Below are positions 9,822 through 64,000 of a stretch of DNA of 64,000 bases, piece after piece. How positions within the stretch are numbered: position 1 is the first letter of the stretch; every line of letters starts with the position of its first letter. Under the pieces are notes generated by a model, which was not told where the DNA came from, made no database searches, and was given only the letters and a program-made list of their open reading frames with translations. A program made the translations under genes and the position numbers. The stretch is from Actinocatenispora comari (lineage in GTDB: Bacteria > Actinomycetota > Actinomycetes > Mycobacteriales > Micromonosporaceae), in assembly GCF_017312725.1 (NCBI RefSeq), contig NZ_BOPO01000125.1:39789-103788 (forward strand), in the 5' to 3' direction.

Positions 9822-11867
9822 TCATGGCCGTTCCCCGGCACTGAGCGGGAACGGCAGGAACTCGGCCGGCTCGCCGACCCGGCCGGTGGCGCCCGGCGGT
9901 ACCAGTACGAAGCCGTCCGCCCAGGCGAGACCGCGCAGCATCGCCGATCCGTTGTGCGGCAACGGGTAGGCCAGGCCGTCCGGTTCCAGCCGGGCGAGCG
10001 CGAGGTGGGTGTCGTCGCCGCGACCGGCGATCTCGGCGCCGAGCCGGACCCGGCTCAACCGCGGCACCGACCGCCCGGTGAGCCCGGCGACCAGCGGCCA
10101 CACCAGCGTCAGCAGGCCGATCACCGCGGACTGCGGGTTGCCCGGCAGGCCCGCCACGAACCGGCCGCCGGGCAGCTTGGCCAGCACCATCGGGAAGCCC
10201 GGCCGGACCGCGACGGTGTCCACCACGTACTCGGCGCCGAGCTGCGCGAGCGCCGGATGCAGGTGGTCGACCGGGCCGTGCATGGTGCCGCCGGTGGTGC
10301 ACACCAGGTCCGCCGCGCCGGCGGCGGTCGCGATCGCCTCGACGTGCGCGTCGAGGGTGTCGCCGACCGGCGCCACCGGGGCGGAAACCGTTGGCAGCGC
10401 GCCGATCCGGGCCAGCCAGCCGGGCAGTTGCGGGCCGAGCGAGTCGCGCACCAGGCCGCGGCCCGGCAGGCCCTCGGTGAGCAGCTCGTCACCGAACACC
10501 AGCACCGTGGCCCGGGGCGGGCGGCGCACCAGCAGCTCGTCGTACCCGCACTGGGCGGCGACGCCGACCGCACCGGGTGTCACCGGGGTACCGGCCGGGA
10601 GCAGTTCCTCGCCCTTGACCGCCTCCTCGCCCGGGACCCGCCACTCCGGCGTCGGCCGGCGGGGCTGCCCGGAGACCAGGCCCTCGGCGTCCCGGGTCGA
10701 GTCCTCGACCCGGATGATCTGGTCGGCGCCCGGCGGCACCATCGCGCCGGTCGCGATCTCGACCGCCGTACCGTCGGCCAGCGCGACCGCGACCTGGCCG
10801 GCGAGCACCCGGCCGGACACCCGCCACGGGCCGGCGCCGCGCACCGCGTAGCCGTCCACGCTGGCGGTGGTGAACGCGGGCAGCGGGGTACGGGCCCGGA
10901 CCGGCTCGGCGAGCGTCGCGCCGGCGGCGTCGGGCAGCGCGAGCCGGACCGGCTCCGGCGGTGCGGCCGCCCCGGCGGCGTGCGCGGCGATTCGGGCCGC
11001 CGCCCAGCCGATCGAGCCGCCACCCGCATCGTGCCCGCGGGCGCCCGCGGCTCCCGGCCCGGTCACCTGTCCGTGGGCACCGTCGGCTCCCGGCGCGGCT
11101 GCGCCGTGGCTGTGGCCACCTACGGCTCCCGGCCCGGCTCCGACGTGGCTGTGGGTACCCGCGGCTCCCGGCGCGGCTGCGCCGTGGCTGTGGGCGCCCG
11201 CGGGTCCTGGCCCGGCCACGGCGGGGCCGGCGGCGGCGCGCGGGCCGGCGCTGGAGCCGGTCGCGGGGAGCACGGTGGTCTGCTCGGCGCCCCCCGGCGG
11301 TGCGGCGACCGCGGACGGGCTGCCGGCGGGCGCGGACGAGTCGGCTGCGGCGACCGCGGGCGGGACGCCGGCGGTCGCGTCCACCGGGCGCGGATGGTCA
11401 CCGCCGCGCAGCTGGTCGACCGCGTGGGCCAGGATCGGGCCGAGCACGGCGAGTCCGTCGGCGACGGCGCCCCGCGAGCCGGCCAGGTTGACCACCAGGG
11501 TGCGGCCGGCGACACCGGCGATGCCACGGGACAGCGCCGCGGTCGGCACCGTGCCCACGCCGTACGCCCGGACCGCCTCGGCGATGCCGGGGATCTGGTA
11601 GTCGAGCACCCGGGCGGTCGCCTCCGGGGTGCGGTCGGTGGGCGAGACACCGGTACCGCCGGTGGTGACGACGACGTCGACCCGGGCCGCGACCGCCTCG
11701 CGCAACGCCCGCTCGACCGGGTCACCGTCCGGTACGACCACGGGCTCGGTCACCGTGGCGCCCAGCCGGCGCAGACCGTCGACGAGCACCGGCCCGGTGG
11801 TGTCGGCGTACCCGCCGGAGGAGGCACGGTTGGAGGCCACGATGACCCGGGCCTGGAAGTCGGTCAC
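9822..11867 (-). CDS. MoaB/MogA-MoeA fusion with His/Gly/Ala-rich linker
   Basis: The 681-residue protein joins a MogA/MoaB-type domain (residues 1-~155, with VVVTTGGTGVSPTDRTPEAT) to a MoeA domain (residues ~285-681, with FTTASVDGYAVRG, GAMVPPGADQIIRVED, CTTGGTMHGPVDHLHPAL and LPGNPQSAV). MogA-type domains adenylate molybdopterin; MoeA inserts molybdate. The order (G then E) is that of animal gephyrin, opposite to plant Cnx1. The linker (~155-285) is low-complexity and contains HSH and related histidine clusters in repeated GAAAPGA-type units. The GTG start follows GGGAGG and overlaps the moaC stop (GTGA). Bacteria usually encode these as separate proteins. Confidence 0.88.
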   Translation of the reverse strand: MTDFQARVIVASNRASSGGYADTTGPVLVDGLRRLGATVTEPVVVPDGDPVERALREAVAARVDVVVTTGGTGVSPTDRTPEATARVLDYQIPGIAEAVRAYGVGTVPTAALSRGIAGVAGRTLVVNLAGSRGAVADGLAVLGPILAHAVDQLRGGDHPRPVDATAGVPPAVAAADSSAPAGSPSAVAAPPGGAEQTTVLPATGSSAGPRAAAGPAVAGPGPAGAHSHGAAAPGAAGTHSHVGAGPGAVGGHSHGAAAPGADGAHGQVTGPGAAGARGHDAGGGSIGWAAARIAAHAAGAAAPPEPVRLALPDAAGATLAEPVRARTPLPAFTTASVDGYAVRGAGPWRVSGRVLAGQVAVALADGTAVEIATGAMVPPGADQIIRVEDSTRDAEGLVSGQPRRPTPEWRVPGEEAVKGEELLPAGTPVTPGAVGVAAQCGYDELLVRRPPRATVLVFGDELLTEGLPGRGLVRDSLGPQLPGWLARIGALPTVSAPVAPVGDTLDAHVEAIATAAGAADLVCTTGGTMHGPVDHLHPALAQLGAEYVVDTVAVRPGFPMVLAKLPGGRFVAGLPGNPQSAVIGLLTLVWPLVAGLTGRSVPRLSRVRLGAEIAGRGDDTHLALARLEPDGLAYPLPHNGSAMLRGLAWADGFVLVPPGATGRVGEPAEFLPFPLSAGERP
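11041..11215 (-). repeat. Repeats encoding the His-rich linker of MoaB-MoeA
   Basis: Degenerate in-frame repeats share the + strand core GGCTCCCGGCGCGGCTG followed by CGCCGTGGCTGTG. On the coding strand they encode units such as AHSHGAAAPGA. The reading frame stays open across the repeats. Histidine clusters could bind metal, but this is inference. Confidence 0.6.
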
Positions 11868-12364
11868 GGTTGCCTCCCGTCGTCGGCCGGACGGATCCAG
11901 GTACCGGTCTTGCCGCCGTCCTTGCGCAGCACCCGGACCGCGTCGATGCCGGCCGCCGGGTCGACCGCCTTGATCATGTCGATCAGCGCGAGGCCGGCGG
12001 CGAGCACCGAGGTCAGCGCCTCCATCTCGACCCCGGTGCGGTCGGCGGTGCGCACCGTGGCTCGTATGTCCACTGTGGACTCGTGCGGTTCGAGGTCGAC
12101 GACCACGCCGTGGATGGCGATCGGATGGCACAGCGGAACGAGGTCGGGGGTGCGCTTCGCGGCCATGATGCCGGCGATCCGCGCCACCCCCAGCGCGTCG
12201 CCCTTGGCCAGTCCGTTGGTTCGGATCAGGTCGAGCACCTCGGTGGTGGTACGCACCACGCCGGCGGCGACGGCACTGCGGACGGTGACGTCCTTGCCGG
12301 AGACGTCCACCATCCGGGCCGCGCCCGTCTCGTCCACATGGGTCAGGCCGCTGGACTCGGTCAC
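11864..12364 (-). CDS. moaC: Cyclic pyranopterin monophosphate synthase MoaC
   Basis: The 166-residue protein has the MoaC signatures THVDETGAARMVDVSGKDVTVR, GLAKGDALGVARIAGIMAAKRTPDLVPLCHPI (active-site lysine and histidine) and VEMEALTSVLAAGLALIDMIKAVD. MoaC converts the MoaA product to cPMP. It is the first gene of the moaC-moaB/moeA-moaE operon and its TGA overlaps the next GTG. The start is GTG at 12364. Confidence 0.95.
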   Translation of the reverse strand: MTESSGLTHVDETGAARMVDVSGKDVTVRSAVAAGVVRTTTEVLDLIRTNGLAKGDALGVARIAGIMAAKRTPDLVPLCHPIAIHGVVVDLEPHESTVDIRATVRTADRTGVEMEALTSVLAAGLALIDMIKAVDPAAGIDAVRVLRKDGGKTGTWIRPADDGRQP

Positions 12365-12759
12365 ACGACGAGCCTACGCAGCCCGGCCGGCCCGGACCGA
12401 CACGGCGGGCGAATCGGTACGGCCGTCCGCACCGCCGGCGGGCCCACCCGCACGGCAATGATCCGTTTCGTACCGCCGAGTGATCACCTGTCATCCTTTT
12501 CGCACATGGCCCTGTCATAGACGGCTATCTATGCTGACGGTGTTCCTCCTGCCGGAGATGGCGGTGCCCCGGCCCGCCCCGCGACGCAACGGGCCGCACG
12601 CACCGGCCACGACGCGCGCGACGTTGGGGGGCGGTCGTGACGACGCCGCGAAACGGGCATGCACCGCGCGCTCCTCGTACCGCGCCGCCCTCCTGCCGCC
12701 GAACCGCGGCCGCCGACCCACCGGCACCCACTCCCGAGACGTACCGAAGGGGGTCCGCC
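12365..12759. promoter_or_regulatory. Region between moaC and the mini-ORF array
   Basis: This 395-bp stretch must hold the leftward promoter of the moaC operon and the rightward promoter of the mini-ORF array. TATCTA at 12526-12531, in a short A+T-richer patch, is the best rightward -10 candidate, but I see no good -35. Long open frames crossing it continue out of frame through the array and are not credible. A 5' leader of about 200 bp before the first unit is implied if that -10 is used. Confidence 0.3.
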
Positions 12760-12783
12760 GTGCGCGAACACAACTGGTCCTGA
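12760..12783 (+). CDS. Heptapeptide ORF unit 1, MREHNWS
   Basis: GTG start, GAAGGGGG at 12746-12753 (6-nt spacing), Ser codon TCC, stop TGA. Its upstream spacer is unlike the others, as expected for the first unit. Confidence 0.7.
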   Translation: MREHNWS

Positions 12784-12825
12784 CGACTTGTCGCAGCCGA
12801 CACCACACGGAGAGGGGATGCCGCC

Positions 12826-12849
12826 ATGCGCGAGCACAACTGGAGCTGA
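12826..12849 (+). CDS. Heptapeptide ORF unit 2, MREHNWS
   Basis: ATG start, GGAGAGGGG ending 8 nt upstream, Ser codon AGC, stop TGA. Preceded by an A-type spacer. Confidence 0.7.
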   Translation: MREHNWS

Positions 12850-12890
12850 CCGCCGCCGACACCTTCCTGACCAGCGGAAAGGAGACCGCG

Positions 12891-12914
12891 ATGCGCGAGC
12901 ACAACTGGAGCTGA
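12891..12914 (+). CDS. Heptapeptide ORF unit 3, MREHNWS
   Basis: ATG start, AAAGGAGA with 5-nt spacing, Ser codon AGC, stop TGA. Preceded by a B-type spacer. Confidence 0.7.
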   Translation: MREHNWS

Positions 12915-12959
12915 GCGAACCCCGTCGCGACCGACACCACGAAGAGAGGAGGCGCCGCC

Positions 12960-12983
12960 ATGCGCGAGCACAACTGGTCCTGA
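12960..12983 (+). CDS. Heptapeptide ORF unit 4, MREHNWS
   Basis: ATG start, GAGAGGAGG with 7-nt spacing, Glu GAG but Ser TCC, stop TGA. This codon combination differs from both units 1 and 2. A-type spacer. Confidence 0.7.
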   Translation: MREHNWS

Positions 12984-13024
12984 GAGCTGTCGCAGCCGAC
13001 ACCACGAAGAAAGGAGGCAGCGCG

Positions 13025-13048
13025 ATGCGCGAGCACAACTGGAGCTGA
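13025..13048 (+). CDS. Heptapeptide ORF unit 5, MREHNWS
   Basis: ATG start, AAAGGAGG with 7-nt spacing, Ser AGC, stop TGA. A-type spacer. Confidence 0.7.
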   Translation: MREHNWS

Positions 13049-13089
13049 ACGACCGGACGCCGCCCCGACAAGCGGGAAGGACACACGCC

Positions 13090-13113
13090 GTGCGCGAACA
13101 CAACTGGTCCTGA
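13090..13113 (+). CDS. Heptapeptide ORF unit 6, MREHNWS
   Basis: GTG start, GGGAAGGA with 8-nt spacing, Glu GAA, Ser TCC, stop TGA. The core is identical to unit 1. C-type spacer. Confidence 0.7.
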   Translation: MREHNWS

Positions 13114-13155
13114 GGAGCGGTCGCAGCCGACACCACGAAGAAAGGAGGCGCCGCC

Positions 13156-13179
13156 ATGCGCGAGCACAACTGGAGCTGA
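13156..13179 (+). CDS. Heptapeptide ORF unit 7, MREHNWS
   Basis: ATG start, AAAGGAGG with 7-nt spacing, Ser AGC, stop TGA. A-type spacer nearly identical to that of unit 5. Confidence 0.7.
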   Translation: MREHNWS

Positions 13180-13220
13180 ACACCGCCGACAACGTCCCGA
13201 CCAGCCGGAAGGAGACCGCG

Positions 13221-13244
13221 ATGCGCGAGCACAACTGGAGCTGA
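13221..13244 (+). CDS. Heptapeptide ORF unit 8, MREHNWS
   Basis: ATG start, GGAAGGAGA with 5-nt spacing, Ser AGC, stop TGA. B-type spacer. Confidence 0.7.
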   Translation: MREHNWS

Positions 13245-13286
13245 GCCCCCGTCGCGACCGACACCACGAAGAGAGGGGACGCCGAC

Positions 13287-13310
13287 ATGCGCGAGCACAA
13301 CTGGAGCTGA
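13287..13310 (+). CDS. Heptapeptide ORF unit 9, MREHNWS
   Basis: ATG start, GAGAGGGGA with 7-nt spacing, Ser AGC, stop TGA. A-type spacer. Confidence 0.7.
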   Translation: MREHNWS

Positions 13311-13347
13311 ACGAGCCGACACGATCCGACAACAGGAAGGACACGCC

Positions 13348-13371
13348 ATGCGCGAGCACAACTGGAGTTGA
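13348..13371 (+). CDS. Heptapeptide ORF unit 10, MREHNWS
   Basis: ATG start, AGGAAGGA with 6-nt spacing, Ser AGT (unique in the array), stop TGA. C-type spacer. Confidence 0.7.
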   Translation: MREHNWS

Positions 13372-13413
13372 TCGGACGACGCCGTCACATCGAGCCGAGG
13401 AGGGAGGCGCGCC

Positions 13414-13437
13414 GTGCGCGAGCACAACTGGAGCTGA
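13414..13437 (+). CDS. Heptapeptide ORF unit 11, MREHNWS
   Basis: GTG start with Glu GAG and Ser AGC, GAGGAGGGAGG with 6-nt spacing, stop TGA. Its spacer belongs to no other family. Confidence 0.7.
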   Translation: MREHNWS

Positions 13438-13478
13438 ACCCCGCCGACAACGTCCTGACCAGCGGAAAGGAGACCGCG

Positions 13479-13502
13479 ATGCGCGAGCACAACTGGAGCT
13501 GA
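13479..13502 (+). CDS. Heptapeptide ORF unit 12, MREHNWS
   Basis: ATG start, AAAGGAGA with 5-nt spacing, Ser AGC, stop TGA. B-type spacer almost identical to that of unit 3. Confidence 0.7.
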   Translation: MREHNWS

Positions 13503-13540
13503 ACGGCACCCGTCGGCCATGTCGTACGAAAGGAGACGCC

Positions 13541-13564
13541 GTGCGTGAACGCCACTGGACCTGA
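13541..13564 (+). CDS. Divergent terminal heptapeptide ORF unit 13, MRERHWT
   Basis: GTG start, AAAGGAG with 5-nt spacing, stop TGA. Relative to the others it has His4 to Arg, Asn5 to His and Ser7 to Thr, while Met-Arg-Glu and Trp6 are kept. Codons for Arg2 (CGT) and Glu3 (GAA) also differ. It is the end of the array. Confidence 0.6.
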   Translation: MRERHWT

Positions 13565-13594
13565 CGACGATCTGTGGTGTTGTCGAACACTCAC

Positions 13595-13623
13595 TTACGT
13601 CGATCCGCGCATCCGCGTAGGAT
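13595..13623 (+). promoter_or_regulatory. Candidate promoter of the GGDEF-EAL gene
   Basis: TAGGAT at 13618-13623 matches the common actinobacterial -10, with TTACGT at 13595-13600 as a weak -35 at 17-bp spacing. It lies between the last mini-ORF and the GTG at 13665, suggesting the downstream gene has its own promoter. Confidence 0.35.
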
Positions 13624-13664
13624 CGCCGCATCCGTCACCCGATTCGCCCCGGGGACCTGCCACC

Positions 13665-16148
13665 GTGAGTACTGCCGACGCTTCCACGGCCCGCAACGCC
13701 ACCCTGCGCCGCTACATCTTCGGACACGCCGCGCTGGCGCTGGGCGTGCTCCTTGTCGCCACCGCCAAGCTGCCCGGGCCGACCGGCGCGCTGTGGCTCG
13801 CGGTGGGCATGCTCGCGCTGTACACGGTGGCCGGGTTGGCCCCGGTGCAGCTGCGGTTGCGCAGCCAGGGCGTGCAGTTCGCCTGGGGCGAGGCAGCCGT
13901 CATCATCGGGCTGGTCGTGCTGCCACCGAGCACGATGATCTGGGCGGCGGCGTTGGGGCGCCTCGCCGCCGAGCTGATCGGTCGCCGCCCCGCGGACAAG
14001 CTCACCCTCAACGTCGCGAAACAGGTCGTCGCAGTCACCGGGGCCGCCACCCTCAGCTACCTGGTGGCCGGCGCCCGGGTGGATCCGTTCACCGTCCGGG
14101 GCGCGGTCGCACTGATCGCCGCGACGGGGGTGTACGCGCTGTTCGCCGCGCTGTCGGTGAGCATCGCGATCAGCCTCGCGAACGGCACCCGGCTGCGGCT
14201 GATGCCGCTGCACCGGGTCGAGCTGATCGCGATCAGCGGCAACATCGCCATCGCGTTCCTGATCCTCGGCGTGCTGCGGTTCGATCCGCGGCTGCTGTTC
14301 GCGATCCCACCGATGATCGTCTTCCTGCGGCTCGCCTACGCCTACCGGCTGCGCACGCACACCGAGCGCGAGGCGTGGCAGCGGCTGGCCGCGGCGACCG
14401 ACCGGTTCAGCGAGGTCGACCTGGCGCAGGTGCTGGGTACCGCGGTGACCGGCGCCGCCGAGCTGTTCGGCGCCGACGAGGTCGAGGTGCTGGTCCGGCT
14501 GGGCACCGAACCGGACGGCCTGGTCCGCGGCGACGCGCAGGGCGTGTCCTGGGCCGGCGCCGCCGCCGACGCACCGGTCGCGGGCGAGGCCGAGACGATC
14601 GAGACGCCGCTCGGCAGCACCGACACCGACGCCGGCCCGGGGGAGCTGCGGCTGCGGTTCGCGGGCACCGTGCGGCTGAGCGACAGCGAGCGGTACGCGC
14701 TGCGTACCTTCGCCGCCGCACTGGGCACCGCGCTGCGCAACGCGTACGCGTACGCCGAGGCGCAGCGGCGGGCGGCCCGGCACGCCTACGACGCGGCGCA
14801 CGATCCGCTCACCGGCCTGGCCAACCGCCGGTACCTGCTGGACGTGGGCGAGCAGGTGCTGTCCGAGCGGCCGGCGCGCGGCACCCAGGCGATGGTGCTG
14901 ATCGACCTGGACCACTTCAAGGAGGTCAACGACACCCTCGGGCACTCCGCCGGTGACGAGGTGTTGACCGCGATCGGCCGGCGGCTGGCCACCGCGGCCG
15001 GCGACGACGACATCGTGGTACGGCTGGGGGGCGACGAGTTCGCGGTGCTGTTCGTGGCGCTGCCGGCGCCGGCGCTCGCGGTGCACCGGGCCCGGCAGAT
15101 GCTCGCCACCCTGGACCCGCCGATCGAGGTCGACGGCATCCGGATCACCGTCGGCGGCAGCGCCGGCGTCGCGCTCGCCCCGGTCCAGGGCGGGGTCGGC
15201 GAGCTGCTGCGCCGCACCGATGTGGCGATGTACCAGGCGAAACGGGAGGGCAGCCGGCTCGCCGAGTACCAGCGGCAGCGGGACACCGCCGACGTCGGCC
15301 GGCTCGCCCTCGGCGGCGAGCTGCGCGCCGCGCTGCACGGCAACCAGTTCGCCCTGCGGTACCTGCCGATCGTCGAGCTGAACTCGGGCCGGATCAGCGC
15401 GGCGGAGGCGCTCGCCCGGTGGGAACACCCGTACCGGGGGGAGATGGCGCCGCGGCAGTTCCTCACCGCGATCGAGCGGTCCGACCTGCTGCCGGAGTTC
15501 ACCGAGCTGGTGCTGGACACCGCGCTGGCGGCGGCGTACCGGTGGGCCGACGCCGGGCACCCGATCGGCGTCGCGGTGAACCTCTCCCCGCGCAGCCTGC
15601 TCGACCCGGACTTCCTGCGCGTGGTGCAGCGGCGCGTCACGTCCAGCGGGGTACCGCCCGAGCAGCTCACCCTGGAGCTGACCGAGACCCGCAACCTGAG
15701 CCGGCTGGACGTCGTCGACGAGACCCTGCGCGGGCTGCGCGAGCTGGGGGTGCGCATCGCCCTGGACGACTTCGGTACCGGCAGCTCCTCGCTCGGCATG
15801 CTGGCCCGGGTGCCGGTGGACGAGCTGAAGATCGACCGCAGCTTCGTCGCCGGCCTGGTCACCTCGCCGGAGCCGGCGGCGGTGGTCCGCGCCGCGATCG
15901 ACCTGGGCCGCAGCCTCGACCTGTCGGTGGTGGCGGAGGGGGTGGAGAGCCAGCGGCAGCGGGCGATGCTGTTCGAGCTGGGCTGCCCGTGCGGTTCCGG
16001 CTACCTGTTCTCCCGGCCGGTGACCGACACCAAGATCGCCGACCTGCTCGCGGCGGAGACCCCGCTGGCGCCGCCGATGTCGGCGGACGCGCAGGTCATC
16101 CGCATCCCACCGGGCCGGCTGACCCGCAGCACCCGGCACCGCCTGTAA
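13665..16148 (+). CDS. Membrane GGDEF-EAL cyclic-di-GMP protein
   Basis: The 827-residue protein has about seven hydrophobic helices (residues ~13-230), a degenerate GAF-like stretch (~240-365), a GGDEF domain starting DPLTGLANRRYLLD (~380) with intact GGDEF at ~455, and an EAL domain with AAEALARWEHP (~580), NLSPRSLLDPDF, LDDFGTGSSSLGML and VVAEGVES. Both motifs are intact, so it may make and degrade cyclic di-GMP. The GTG at 13665 (VSTADASTARN) is preferred: the 40 upstream codons overlap the last mini-ORF and look non-coding. It lies 100 bp downstream of the heptapeptide array on the same strand. Confidence 0.9.
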   Translation: MSTADASTARNATLRRYIFGHAALALGVLLVATAKLPGPTGALWLAVGMLALYTVAGLAPVQLRLRSQGVQFAWGEAAVIIGLVVLPPSTMIWAAALGRLAAELIGRRPADKLTLNVAKQVVAVTGAATLSYLVAGARVDPFTVRGAVALIAATGVYALFAALSVSIAISLANGTRLRLMPLHRVELIAISGNIAIAFLILGVLRFDPRLLFAIPPMIVFLRLAYAYRLRTHTEREAWQRLAAATDRFSEVDLAQVLGTAVTGAAELFGADEVEVLVRLGTEPDGLVRGDAQGVSWAGAAADAPVAGEAETIETPLGSTDTDAGPGELRLRFAGTVRLSDSERYALRTFAAALGTALRNAYAYAEAQRRAARHAYDAAHDPLTGLANRRYLLDVGEQVLSERPARGTQAMVLIDLDHFKEVNDTLGHSAGDEVLTAIGRRLATAAGDDDIVVRLGGDEFAVLFVALPAPALAVHRARQMLATLDPPIEVDGIRITVGGSAGVALAPVQGGVGELLRRTDVAMYQAKREGSRLAEYQRQRDTADVGRLALGGELRAALHGNQFALRYLPIVELNSGRISAAEALARWEHPYRGEMAPRQFLTAIERSDLLPEFTELVLDTALAAAYRWADAGHPIGVAVNLSPRSLLDPDFLRVVQRRVTSSGVPPEQLTLELTETRNLSRLDVVDETLRGLRELGVRIALDDFGTGSSSLGMLARVPVDELKIDRSFVAGLVTSPEPAAVVRAAIDLGRSLDLSVVAEGVESQRQRAMLFELGCPCGSGYLFSRPVTDTKIADLLAAETPLAPPMSADAQVIRIPPGRLTRSTRHRL

Positions 16149-34197: not shown

Positions 34198-34278
34198 ATG
34201 AGCGAGCGCCAGCGAGCGAATCAGAGGTACTGCGCGTCGTGCCTCATCGGACTTCCGACGAAGGAGGAAGCCCGATGA
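34198..34278 (+). CDS. 26-codon mini-ORF 1 upstream of the DeoR gene
   Basis: It reads MSERQRANQRYCASC... ending LPTKEEAR, with a CxxC. It starts 10 bp after the phosphatase stop and its TGA overlaps the ATG of mini-ORF 2. It may be a translated coupling peptide or only a consequence of an intergenic repeat. I recall repeats of similar GAGCGAGCG...GAGCGAATCA sequence in Micromonosporaceae but cannot verify it here. Confidence 0.4.
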   Translation: MSERQRANQRYCASCLIGLPTKEEAR

Positions 34279-34354
34279 GCAGGCGCCAGCGAGCGAATCA
34301 GAGGTACTGCGCGTCGTGCCTCATCGGACTTCCGACGCAGGAGGAAGCCCGATG
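34198..34354 (+). repeat. 77-bp tandem duplication including ribosome site and start codon
   Basis: Copy 1 (34198-34274) and copy 2 (34275-34351) differ at three positions. Each carries GCCAGCGAGCGAATCAGAGG, a strong GGAGGAAGCCCG ribosome site at its end, and the next ATGA. The duplication produced two consecutive mini-ORFs before the DeoR gene. Confidence 0.9.
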
Positions 34355-34355
34355 A
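34275..34355 (+). CDS. 26-codon mini-ORF 2, duplicate of mini-ORF 1
   Basis: It differs from mini-ORF 1 by Glu3 to Arg and Lys22 to Gln. AAGGAGGAAG precedes its ATG and its TGA overlaps the DeoR ATG at 34352 (ATGA), so its translation would deliver ribosomes to the regulator. Same caveat as copy 1. Confidence 0.45.
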   Translation: MSRRQRANQRYCASCLIGLPTQEEAR

Positions 34356-41428: not shown

Positions 41429-43792
41429 GTGAGCGGCGAGGAGACGCCGGAGTCACGGCGGGGTGGTGCGCTGGCGAGCAGCGGTGCGGCCAGCGAGCCG
41501 TCGGTGGCCAACCTGACCCTGCGGCAGTCGGCACCCGAACAGCGCGACGACGCCGACGGACCGTCCACCGAGCCCGGCGCCGGCGGTACCGGCTCGGGCC
41601 AGCAGGCGACCGCGGCGGCGCCGAAGCCGACCGGATCGGCGGCCGGCTCGGCGTCGGAGACCGCCGGGGCAGCGACCGGGGCGCCCGGAGTGGCGACGGC
41701 GGCGCCCGCGACGGCGGAGAAGACGGCTGGGGCGGCGGAGAAGACGGCTGGGGCGGCGGAGAAGACGGCTGGGGCGGCGGAGAAGACGGCTGGGGCGGCG
41801 GAGAAGACGGCTGGGGCGGCGGAGAAGACGGCTGGGGCGGCGGAGAAGACGGCTGGGGCGGCGGAGAAGACGGCTGGGGCGGCGGAGAAGACTGCTGGGG
41901 CGGCGGAGAAGACGGCCGACCGCGCTGGCGCCGGGGACGCCGCCGGCACGAAGAGCGAGAGCGACAGCGGCGGCAAGGGCGACGAGGCGGGGTGGTCCCG
42001 GTTCGCGCCGGTCGAGCCGAACCCGCCGGGGCTGTTGCGCCGGATCGGCGGTGGTGTCGGCCGGTTCTGCAGCCACGAGTGGACGGTGGCGAGCGTCGCC
42101 GGGCTGCTGCTCGCGGTGCTGATGACCTGGCCGACCGTGCTGCATCCGGCGAGCACGATCCCGCAGGACATCTACGACCCGCTGTTGCAGACCTGGCAGA
42201 TCGCCTGGGACGGGCACGCGCTGCTGACCGACCCGCTGCACCTGTGGGACAGCAACACGTTCTTCCCGGACCACGACACGCTCGCGTTCTCCGACAGCCT
42301 GCTCGGGTACGCGCCGCTGGGCATGATCGGCTCCGGCCCGGTCGCCGCGCTGGTGCGCTACAACATCCTCTACGTGCTGGCGTACGCGCTGGCCTTCGTC
42401 GGGATGTACGCGCTGTGCCGGCAGCTCGGCACCCGCAAGCCCGGTGCGGCGATGGCCGCCGCGGCGTTCGCGTACGCGCCGTGGCGGTTGGCGCACGGCG
42501 GTCACCTGAACATCCTGTCCACCGGCGGCATCGCGCTCGCGCTGGCGATGCTGGCCCGCGGGCACGGGTTCAGCTTCCGGCGGGACGGCAAGCCGGGCCG
42601 GGTCCGCTGGGGCTGGGCGCTCGGCGGCTGGCTGGTCGCCGCCTGGCAGGTCACCCTCGGCTGGGGGCTGGGGCTGCCGTTCTGCTACCTGCTCGGGGTG
42701 CTGGTCGCCGTCGGCTGCGTGGTCTGGCTGGTACGCAGGATCCGCCGGCGGCTGCGCAAGGACACCGGGCGGGCCGGCCGGTTCCACCTGTCGCTGCTGC
42801 TCGGCAACCTGGTCGGGCTGGCCGTGTTCGGCGCGACCTGCCTCTACCTGGGGCTGCCGTACCTGCGGGCGGTGCACGAGCATCCGGAGGCGCGCCGGAC
42901 GGTCGCCGAGCTGAAGCTGTTCTCGCCGCCGTGGCAGGGGTTCTTCATCGCGCCCGAGCAGTCCTGGCTGTGGGGTGACACGCACGCGCAGGCGCGCCAG
43001 GCGCTGCCGTTCCAGCCGGAGATGACGCTGCTGGTCGGGATGGTGCTGGTGGCGTTCGCGGTGCTGGGGCTGTTCCTGTCCAGCTGGCGGATCCGGACCC
43101 GGCTGCTGCTGCTCGCCGGGGTCGCGGTCAGCGTGGTGCTGGCGATGGGCACCGCCTTCCCGGGCGGCGGCCGGTACACCTACCTGGTGCTCTACGACCA
43201 CCTGCCGGCCTGGGACGCGATCCGTACCCCGGGGCGGCTGGTGCTGTGGACGACGCTGCTGCTGGCCCTGCTCGCGGCCGGCGCGGTGAACGCGCTGAGC
43301 CAGCGGGCGGACGAGTTCGCGGTGTCCCGGGGGCGCAACCCGCGCCGGGTCGGGCCGGCGCTGCGGCTGCTCGTCGCGGTGCCGCTGGTGCTGGTGCTGA
43401 TCGAGGGGTGGGCCCGCACGCCGCACCCGCAGGTACCGACCGAGCCGCGGGAGATGCACGCGCTCGCCGGCCCGGTGCTGATCCTGCCGACCGACACGCT
43501 CACCGACCAGCGCTACATGTACTGGTCGACGGACGGGTTCCCGCAGCTGGTCAACGGCGGCAGCGGGGTGCAGCCGGCGAAGCAGGACCAGATCCGGCAG
43601 GCGGCCACCGACTTCCCCAGCCAGCGCAGCGTCGACTACCTGCGCCAGCTCGGGGTGCGCACCGTCGTGGTGTTCCGCGACGGCCTGGCCGGCACGCCGT
43701 ACCAGAACGTGATCTCGAAGTCGACCATCGGGCTCGGCGTCAAGCTCCACGACACCGGCCCGGCGGTCGTCTACGTCCTCGACCCGGCGTAG
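41429..43792 (+). CDS. Multi-pass membrane protein, GT-C-like, with EKTAGAA repeat N-terminus
   Basis: The 787-residue protein has a ~200-residue low-complexity cytoplasmic N-terminus, including ten AEKTAGA repeats, then about a dozen membrane helices. The first outer loop has TIPQDIYDPLLQTWQIAWDGHALLTDPLHLWDSNTFFPDHDTLAFSD, typical of a large actinobacterial family resembling GT-C or YfhO-like glycosyltransferases. The C-terminus is an outer domain with LRQLGVRTVVVFRDG. Start is GTG at 41429 after GAAGGAGGG. Substrate unknown. Confidence 0.75.
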   Translation: MSGEETPESRRGGALASSGAASEPSVANLTLRQSAPEQRDDADGPSTEPGAGGTGSGQQATAAAPKPTGSAAGSASETAGAATGAPGVATAAPATAEKTAGAAEKTAGAAEKTAGAAEKTAGAAEKTAGAAEKTAGAAEKTAGAAEKTAGAAEKTAGAAEKTADRAGAGDAAGTKSESDSGGKGDEAGWSRFAPVEPNPPGLLRRIGGGVGRFCSHEWTVASVAGLLLAVLMTWPTVLHPASTIPQDIYDPLLQTWQIAWDGHALLTDPLHLWDSNTFFPDHDTLAFSDSLLGYAPLGMIGSGPVAALVRYNILYVLAYALAFVGMYALCRQLGTRKPGAAMAAAAFAYAPWRLAHGGHLNILSTGGIALALAMLARGHGFSFRRDGKPGRVRWGWALGGWLVAAWQVTLGWGLGLPFCYLLGVLVAVGCVVWLVRRIRRRLRKDTGRAGRFHLSLLLGNLVGLAVFGATCLYLGLPYLRAVHEHPEARRTVAELKLFSPPWQGFFIAPEQSWLWGDTHAQARQALPFQPEMTLLVGMVLVAFAVLGLFLSSWRIRTRLLLLAGVAVSVVLAMGTAFPGGGRYTYLVLYDHLPAWDAIRTPGRLVLWTTLLLALLAAGAVNALSQRADEFAVSRGRNPRRVGPALRLLVAVPLVLVLIEGWARTPHPQVPTEPREMHALAGPVLILPTDTLTDQRYMYWSTDGFPQLVNGGSGVQPAKQDQIRQAATDFPSQRSVDYLRQLGVRTVVVFRDGLAGTPYQNVISKSTIGLGVKLHDTGPAVVYVLDPA
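41714..41923 (+). repeat. 21-bp in-frame tandem repeat, ten copies
   Basis: Unit GCGGAGAAGACGGCTGGGGC plus G encodes AEKTAGA. Copies 1-8 are identical, copy 9 has one change and copy 10 is degenerate at its end. Near-perfect identity indicates recent expansion; copy number is likely to vary between strains. Confidence 0.92.
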
Positions 43793-63604: not shown

Positions 63605-64000
63605 ATGCCGAGCCGTGACCGTACACCCGCCGTCGAACAGGGTGCCCCTGCCGACGGGTCGACGACACGGCCGAGCAATGCGACAAACGACGCCAACACC
63701 GCATCCGGTACCGGTGAGACGCCCCGCCGGCGGTCCCGGCGCCGGCGCCGTCCGCGCCACCGCAACGCATCGACGAAACCCACGTCGCCCGAGGTCACGG
63801 CCATCGACGGGGACCGGTCCGGAGCGCCGACCGGCGACACCGCACCGGCCCGGGACGCGGCGGCCGGCAGCGGTGCGTCCACCGGCGACGGCGTGTCCTC
63901 CGGCGACGCCGCCGACGCGAGCGGTGGCGCGGCCGGGCCGGGCAGCGCGAGCGGTGGCGCGGCCGGGCCGGGCAGCGCGAGCGGTGGCGCGGCCGCGTCC
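63605..64000 (+). CDS. Probable Nudix protein, N-terminal part only
   Basis: The visible 132 residues start MPSRDRTPAVEQGAPADG, contain a basic run RRRSRRRRRPRHRN, then low-complexity Gly/Ala/Ser repeats, and run off the right edge. In Mycobacterium the gene divergent from pcnA is the Nudix gene mutT4 with a similar basic N-terminus, so this assignment is by position and composition only. No catalytic motif is visible. Confidence 0.45.
   Translation, partial: MPSRDRTPAVEQGAPADGSTTRPSNATNDANTASGTGETPRRRSRRRRRPRHRNASTKPTSPEVTAIDGDRSGAPTGDTAPARDAAAGSGASTGDGVSSGDAADASGGAAGPGSASGGAAGPGSASGGAAAS
63918..64000 (+). repeat. 30-bp in-frame tandem repeat at right edge
   Basis: Units containing GCGAGCGGTGGCGCGGCCG recur about three times and continue to the window end, encoding SASGGAAGPG-type repeats. 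Confidence 0.85.

Follow-up and report, generated by a model that had tools for sequence, protein, structure and literature searches.

Why should a bacterium encode one heptapeptide a dozen times over, in separate genes placed one behind the other? The question is raised by a 64,000-nucleotide (nt) stretch of Actinocatenispora comari (assembly GCF_017312725.1, contig NZ_BOPO01000125.1, positions 39,789 to 103,788), hereafter the window, in which positions 12760-13564 of the + strand hold thirteen 24-nt open reading frames (ORFs) of seven codons, each with its own Shine-Dalgarno (SD) sequence, ATG or GTG start and TGA stop. Twelve of them read MREHNWS and the last MRERHWT, and the array fills the gap between a divergent moaC and the gene of a membrane GAF-GGDEF-EAL protein, a cyclic di-GMP (c-di-GMP) enzyme. 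The reading that we favour, with a probability of about 0.6, is that these are thirteen tandem genes for a conserved peptide, and that the heptapeptide acts in trans as a ligand of the c-di-GMP enzyme encoded downstream. Because related tryptophan (Trp) peptides or protein tails are encoded just upstream of the same kind of enzyme in many other actinobacteria, the heptapeptide likely represents an unrecognised signal that would control it.

The thirteen complete ORFs had been described in an earlier note on this DNA, and direct reading together with a pattern search bore this out. A scan of the whole genome returned 13 pattern matches, every one inside the array, and the reversed pattern, used as a control, gave 0. 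The units are spaced 61-69 nt apart and mostly out of frame; as the 12 intervals modulo 3 are 0, 2, 0, 2, 2, 0, 2, 0, 1, 0, 2 and 2, the units cannot form one fused frame. Among the twelve MREHNWS units of the window, all differences in the core are ATG/GTG exchanges or synonymous changes, AGC/TCC among them, just as the note had stated; only 8 of the 63 single changes possible in codons 2-8 are synonymous.

When relatives were searched for the same array, as the note had proposed, it was found at the identical place in all four genomes of the genus, with 13, 13, 10 and 7 units. MREHNWS is encoded by 41 of these 43 units, the core otherwise varying only synonymously, with four serine codons in use (AGC, AGT, TCC and TCG) and an SD-like sequence before every unit (43/43). 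Instead of nonsynonymous changes scattered at random, which would have spoken against the note, just two units are altered, both array-terminal: MRERHWT (genome G000; G and L numbers are our handles for genomes and loci) and MREHNWT (G002). In A. rupis NBRC 107355 (locus L015, genome G001), all 13 units read MREHNWS, while the N-terminal part of the adjacent protein is 64% identical. The genus thus gives strong support to the view that selection acts on the peptide rather than on the DNA, as do the family orthologues described below, which keep the motif. A repeated DNA or RNA element that merely looks coding, such as a set of protein-binding sites or a ribosome sponge, would account for the regular spacing near 65 bp, but it is highly improbable in our judgement, since the changes in the core obey the genetic code and the tiny ORFs across the family, though altered in their DNA, retain the frame, Arg2, the Trp and the stop. 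Rfam gave no match at gathering scores.

Searches by pattern reached little further. Across genome contigs, the exact 24-nt pattern was found in A. rupis and as two single matches, in Dethiosulfatibacter and in a Bacillota metagenome-assembled genome. With up to 2 mismatches, 9 of 300 family genomes gave matches, those in G099, G006 and G285 being judged to be chance matches or to lie within genes. A match in G229 was rejected for its in-frame TAG. A looser pattern, applied to 396 genomes of the phylum, found besides the window only G433, where the match was rejected by eye as the end of a longer reading frame.

We therefore turn from the array to its neighbour, a protein of 827 amino acids in which both the GGDEF and the EAL motif are intact when read letter by letter. 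A sequence search of the PDB gave no significant match to its membrane domain; from a structural model and fold matches, this domain is predicted to resemble the ligand-binding S components of energy-coupling factor (ECF) transporters, here fused to GAF-GGDEF-EAL. A profile of the N-terminal part of this enzyme was run against 80 genomes of the family (in all our counts genome group f1; Actinocatenispora belongs to the Micromonosporaceae), of which 72 matched at 1e-20 and 8 did not. The upstream DNA was inspected for all 73 hits with E <1e-45 (4 arrays and 69 others) and for one more. A small ORF ending in Trp-x-stop was present in 70 of the 70 array-less loci, roughly 90-340 nt upstream of the enzyme gene and mostly of the form M-R-x-x-[DE]-W-x. 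Under a strict rule (SD, 6-9 codons), 61 of the 70 loci pass, against 0/70 on the opposite strand and, in dinucleotide shuffles scored by this strict rule only, a mean of 0.11 and a maximum of 2; the remaining 9 qualify only if a weaker SD or a different length is allowed. Any other penultimate residue is found in at most 2 of the 70 upstream regions. Among 69 peptides tabulated, with each locus contributing one (the two long ones omitted and MREHNWS entered once), Arg2 occurs in 59 and Asp or Glu before the Trp in 57, with a length of seven residues in 49 and of eight in 18; the two longer versions end in NDWS and NDWY. A second copy of the enzyme in the genus has a tiny ORF of its own, MREVSWG in the window genome and G002, MREWCWG in G001 and MREGVWG in G003. 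A Trp-motif ORF or tail was found in none of 15 weaker family paralogues.

The position of these ORFs suggests another explanation, namely that of a cis-acting leader, in which ribosome pausing on the tiny ORF, by attenuation or by arrest at Trp-x-stop, sets the expression of the GGDEF-EAL gene. The ORFs lie on the same strand just upstream, with a fixed short length and a single Trp codon, always the second last, and in three loci of other families (L119, L122 and L124; z of -4.4, -4.5 and -1.8) the tiny ORF is followed by a hairpin, the classical layout of an attenuator. By eye, however, the three predicted folds show no rival antiterminator pairing, and no + strand terminator was found in the interval 12365-13700 of the window. 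Stop codons vary (TGA, TAG or TAA) and serine codons are drawn from both boxes. Furthermore, a leader would gain nothing from thirteen identical copies, and the unit nearest to the enzyme gene is the most diverged of the window. Two-unit loci occur in G037 (MRDDSWH twice) and G110 (MRETDWG and MSETDWG) within the family, and in G884 (MNTGVSWG and MNAGVSWG) of a different one; repetition of the tiny ORF has arisen more than once, which is more in keeping with a product being dosed than with a leader acting in cis. Relatives also have secreted-looking repeat precursors and subtilases with Trp tails at the same place, as shown next, and we regard the leader as quite unlikely.

Relatives of the enzyme were detected in 43 of 296 genomes of the class, three of them from the family, leaving 40 outside genomes with 78 hits. 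Three of the 78 loci were set aside because they were too short, although one of these, L218, does have a tail. A Trp-motif carrier lies upstream in 62 of the other 75: 54 carry tails, among which small repeat precursors were counted, and 8 carry small ORFs, while 13 have nothing, two of the latter holding a subtilase whose Trp-rich end is of a looser kind. The tails comprise 48 that match subtilase by tblastn, 5 small repeat precursors and 1 cut by the contig end. The commonest outside carrier is thus a subtilase with a tandem Trp C-terminus (e.g., NSWSA, SSWSG, GANWYG, STWTG or LTWRG), and the tiny ORFs include MRSTSWN, MRDTYWG, MSKDWK, MSKMWA, MNAGVSWG and MSLTEKWG. Small precursors with several Trp motifs were seen in L167, L202, L211, L226 and L228; hydrophobic N-terminal leaders were recognised by eye in L167, L209, L211, L224, L226 and L228, L202 being without one. 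The tail rule applied to the opposite strand gave 0/68. As a further control we took 30 loci of GGDEF genes, of which 2 proved to be members of the clan and 14 had too little upstream DNA; the 14 used, unrelated GGDEF genes from five of the genomes, had a carrier in 0/14, with less upstream DNA in view. The divergent moaC adjoins 38 of 43 family loci on the upstream side and none of 14 loci outside the family, which indicates that the Trp motif tracks the enzyme and not moaC.

Long C-terminal tails of Trp pentads were noted on subtilases beside GGDEF-EAL genes in L128, L143, L154, L170, L186 and others, and this pairing recurs in several actinobacterial families. The repeat units of the tails vary between neighbours within one genome, as in G775, which has four different tails.

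In a tree of 61 enzymes labelled as tiny, tail or none, the labels require 7 changes, against 18.6 when they are shuffled, and along supported branches the tiny label must change no fewer than 3 times. The tiny pair G884/G762 is nested in a supported clade of tail types. The deep branches of this tree are weak and three of its rows are long; L141 and L153, which the rule had called 'none', were labelled by hand as tiny and as Trp tail, respectively, and L152 was left out. No locus among those classified has both a tiny ORF and a tail. On this tree, the carrier types interchange beside one enzyme clan, and with one motif, several carriers and one clan, the simplest reading would be that the enzyme senses this motif. 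The same loci could be explained if the Trp motif were a handle or a substrate (for example, for processing, anchoring or inhibiting the subtilase) and the enzyme merely co-regulated, given that 48 of the 62 outside carriers are subtilases with tails and that adjacency alone cannot separate a ligand from a co-regulated neighbour. Yet in the family no subtilase separates the tiny ORF from the enzyme gene, and one and the same clan has tiny types exchanged for tail types beside it; we hold this explanation to be unlikely.

Genes of comparable size are known from peptide antibiotics, and the array might accordingly encode the precursor of a minimal ribosomally synthesised and post-translationally modified peptide (RiPP) or of a peptide-nucleotide antibiotic, with the modifying enzyme encoded elsewhere and the neighbouring enzyme incidental or regulatory. 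Peptides of the MccA and BytA types often start with Met-Arg. The microcin C gene mccA is reported to have 7 (rarely 8) codons, a strong SD, a conserved length and a variable sequence (PMC6495379), and the biarylitide gene bytA to have five codons and to reach up to six copies in one Lysinibacillus strain (PMC13417212). All 13 units of the window are like mccA in their seven codons and their SD, and like bytA they form a tiny gene missed by annotation, for whose repetition the multi-copy bytA is a precedent. In contrast to MccA, the last residue of the array peptides is Ser or Thr and not Asn, which MccB needs at the C-terminus and which only 5 of the 69 family peptides have there; the penultimate Trp is conserved here; and no MccB (ThiF family) is encoded nearby, the single ThiF-family match of the genome being on contig C2 and not on the window's contig, C125. 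Unlike BytA with its P450 partner, the peptides have 7-8 codons and a c-di-GMP enzyme as neighbour; the genome has 13 P450 matches, none of them on C125, in agreement with the note's statement that no P450 lies nearby. A biarylitide P450, AciB, is known from A. rupis as well (PMC13417212), which gives the genus a further tiny-gene system, unrelated to the present one. With a c-di-GMP enzyme as the constant neighbour, and no modifying enzyme, such an antibiotic precursor seems quite improbable.

Multi-copy precursors of peptide pheromones, such as that of yeast alpha-factor, yield many copies of one short peptide. Those in L211, L226, L228 and L167 look alike in this respect, whereas the copies in the window are separate ORFs without leader or processing sites, and the array heptapeptides have no export signal. 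There are signs of secretion in the subtilases and in several of the small precursors, but not in the tiny ORFs. Among the four roles that the note had offered, a signal, paired with the membrane c-di-GMP enzyme downstream, is the one favoured, and the minimal RiPP and the stalling leader are disfavoured. A similar layout is found in membrane GGDEF-EAL proteins such as Streptomyces RmdB, with a membrane domain and GGDEF-EAL and a signal that is unknown; the excerpt of PMC6205966 mentions no peptide gene.

The features of the locus are compiled in Table 1. A consensus scan of 12365-13700 detected no promoter, and both candidate promoters rest on reading by eye; TAGGAT is kept in 4/4 genus genomes, while the TTACGT hexamer is absent from A. 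rupis.

Table 1. Array units, neighbouring genes and candidate promoters in the window.
Feature	Position	Strand	Remarks	Basis
Unit 1, MREHNWS	12760..12783	+	GTG start	read directly, pattern match
Unit 2, MREHNWS	12826..12849	+		read directly, pattern match
Unit 3, MREHNWS	12891..12914	+		read directly, pattern match
Unit 4, MREHNWS	12960..12983	+		read directly, pattern match
Unit 5, MREHNWS	13025..13048	+		read directly, pattern match
Unit 6, MREHNWS	13090..13113	+	GTG start	read directly, pattern match
Unit 7, MREHNWS	13156..13179	+		read directly, pattern match
Unit 8, MREHNWS	13221..13244	+		read directly, pattern match
Unit 9, MREHNWS	13287..13310	+		read directly, pattern match
Unit 10, MREHNWS	13348..13371	+		read directly, pattern match
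Unit 11, MREHNWS	13414..13437	+	GTG start	read directly, pattern match
Unit 12, MREHNWS	13479..13502	+		read directly, pattern match
Unit 13, MRERHWT	13541..13564	+	GTG start; diverged	read directly, pattern match
Membrane (S-component-like)-GAF-GGDEF-EAL protein	13665..16148	+	likely peptide partner	Pfam GGDEF, EAL
moaC	11864..12364	-	divergent neighbour, probably outside the system	Pfam MoaC
Candidate array promoter block	12526..12549	+	TATGCT, then CTGACGGTGTTCCTCC	4/4 genus genomes, by eye
Candidate own promoter of the enzyme gene	13595..13623	+	TTACGT, 17 nt, TAGGAT	by eye

In three other loci (L039, L040 and L045; 1300-1420), a block TTTCGTGAAACGAGCGACAAATC, strongly conserved within one genus, lies upstream of the tiny ORF and has a GACATTTA-like counterpart at a similar distance in other genera; it might be a promoter of the peptide gene or a site for its regulator. 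Elsewhere in the window, positions 34198-34355 hold another duplicated tiny gene, consisting of two tandem, near-identical 77-bp units, each with an SD and a 26-codon ORF (MSERQRANQRYCASCLIGLPTKEEAR and MSRRQRANQRYCASCLIGLPTQEEAR) that overlaps the next start, and finally the following gene, in the manner of ATGA. Short tandem repeats were found at 41712-41916 (21 bp x 9.8, 98%) and at 63916-63995 (30 bp x 2.7, 100%).

Returning to the peptide as a ligand, we infer that the units are translated, that the peptide contacts the enzyme and that this affects c-di-GMP. A single message, possibly started at the promoter block near 12530, would serve for the translation of all thirteen short ORFs, and the Trp-motif heptapeptide would bind the S-component-like membrane domain, which would relay its bound state via GAF to the GGDEF and EAL domains. 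Amplification of the gene would raise the dose of peptide, as tandem Trp repeats would in subtilase tails and small precursors, so that repeats of tail, precursor and gene may be three routes to more motif. The enzyme gene may be driven by its own candidate promoter. In L119, L122 and L124 the hairpin could keep the message for the peptide in excess of that for the enzyme, much as PMC6495379 reports for mccA, where termination leaves the mccA transcript more abundant than that of the genes behind it. Reiterative translation in vitro of the 7-codon mccA ORF, reported in the same paper, may bear on the fixed length.

In the open-licence literature that we searched, the array, Trp-motif tiny ORFs before GGDEF-EAL genes and pairs of Trp-tail subtilase and enzyme are undescribed; which signals the membrane and N-terminal sensor domains of c-di-GMP enzymes respond to is mostly unknown, as PMC6205966 notes for those of Streptomyces. 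To a broader proposal we give roughly even odds: that these loci form an unrecognised class of peptide signals, in which one Trp motif, paired in each case with an S-component-like membrane c-di-GMP enzyme of its own, comes in formats that can replace one another (leaderless tiny genes, thirteen of them here, small secreted multi-copy precursors, or the Trp-repeat tails of secreted subtilases) and at a dose that is set by copy number and evolves. In any case, a candidate ligand is encoded in the genome right beside the c-di-GMP enzyme, of a length that can be synthesised and with natural variants that can be paired and swapped. If the proposal holds true, a family of 7-codon genes, overlooked by annotation, would have stayed conserved across a large family of antibiotic producers, and its dose would be raised by repeating separate genes instead of repeats within one protein.
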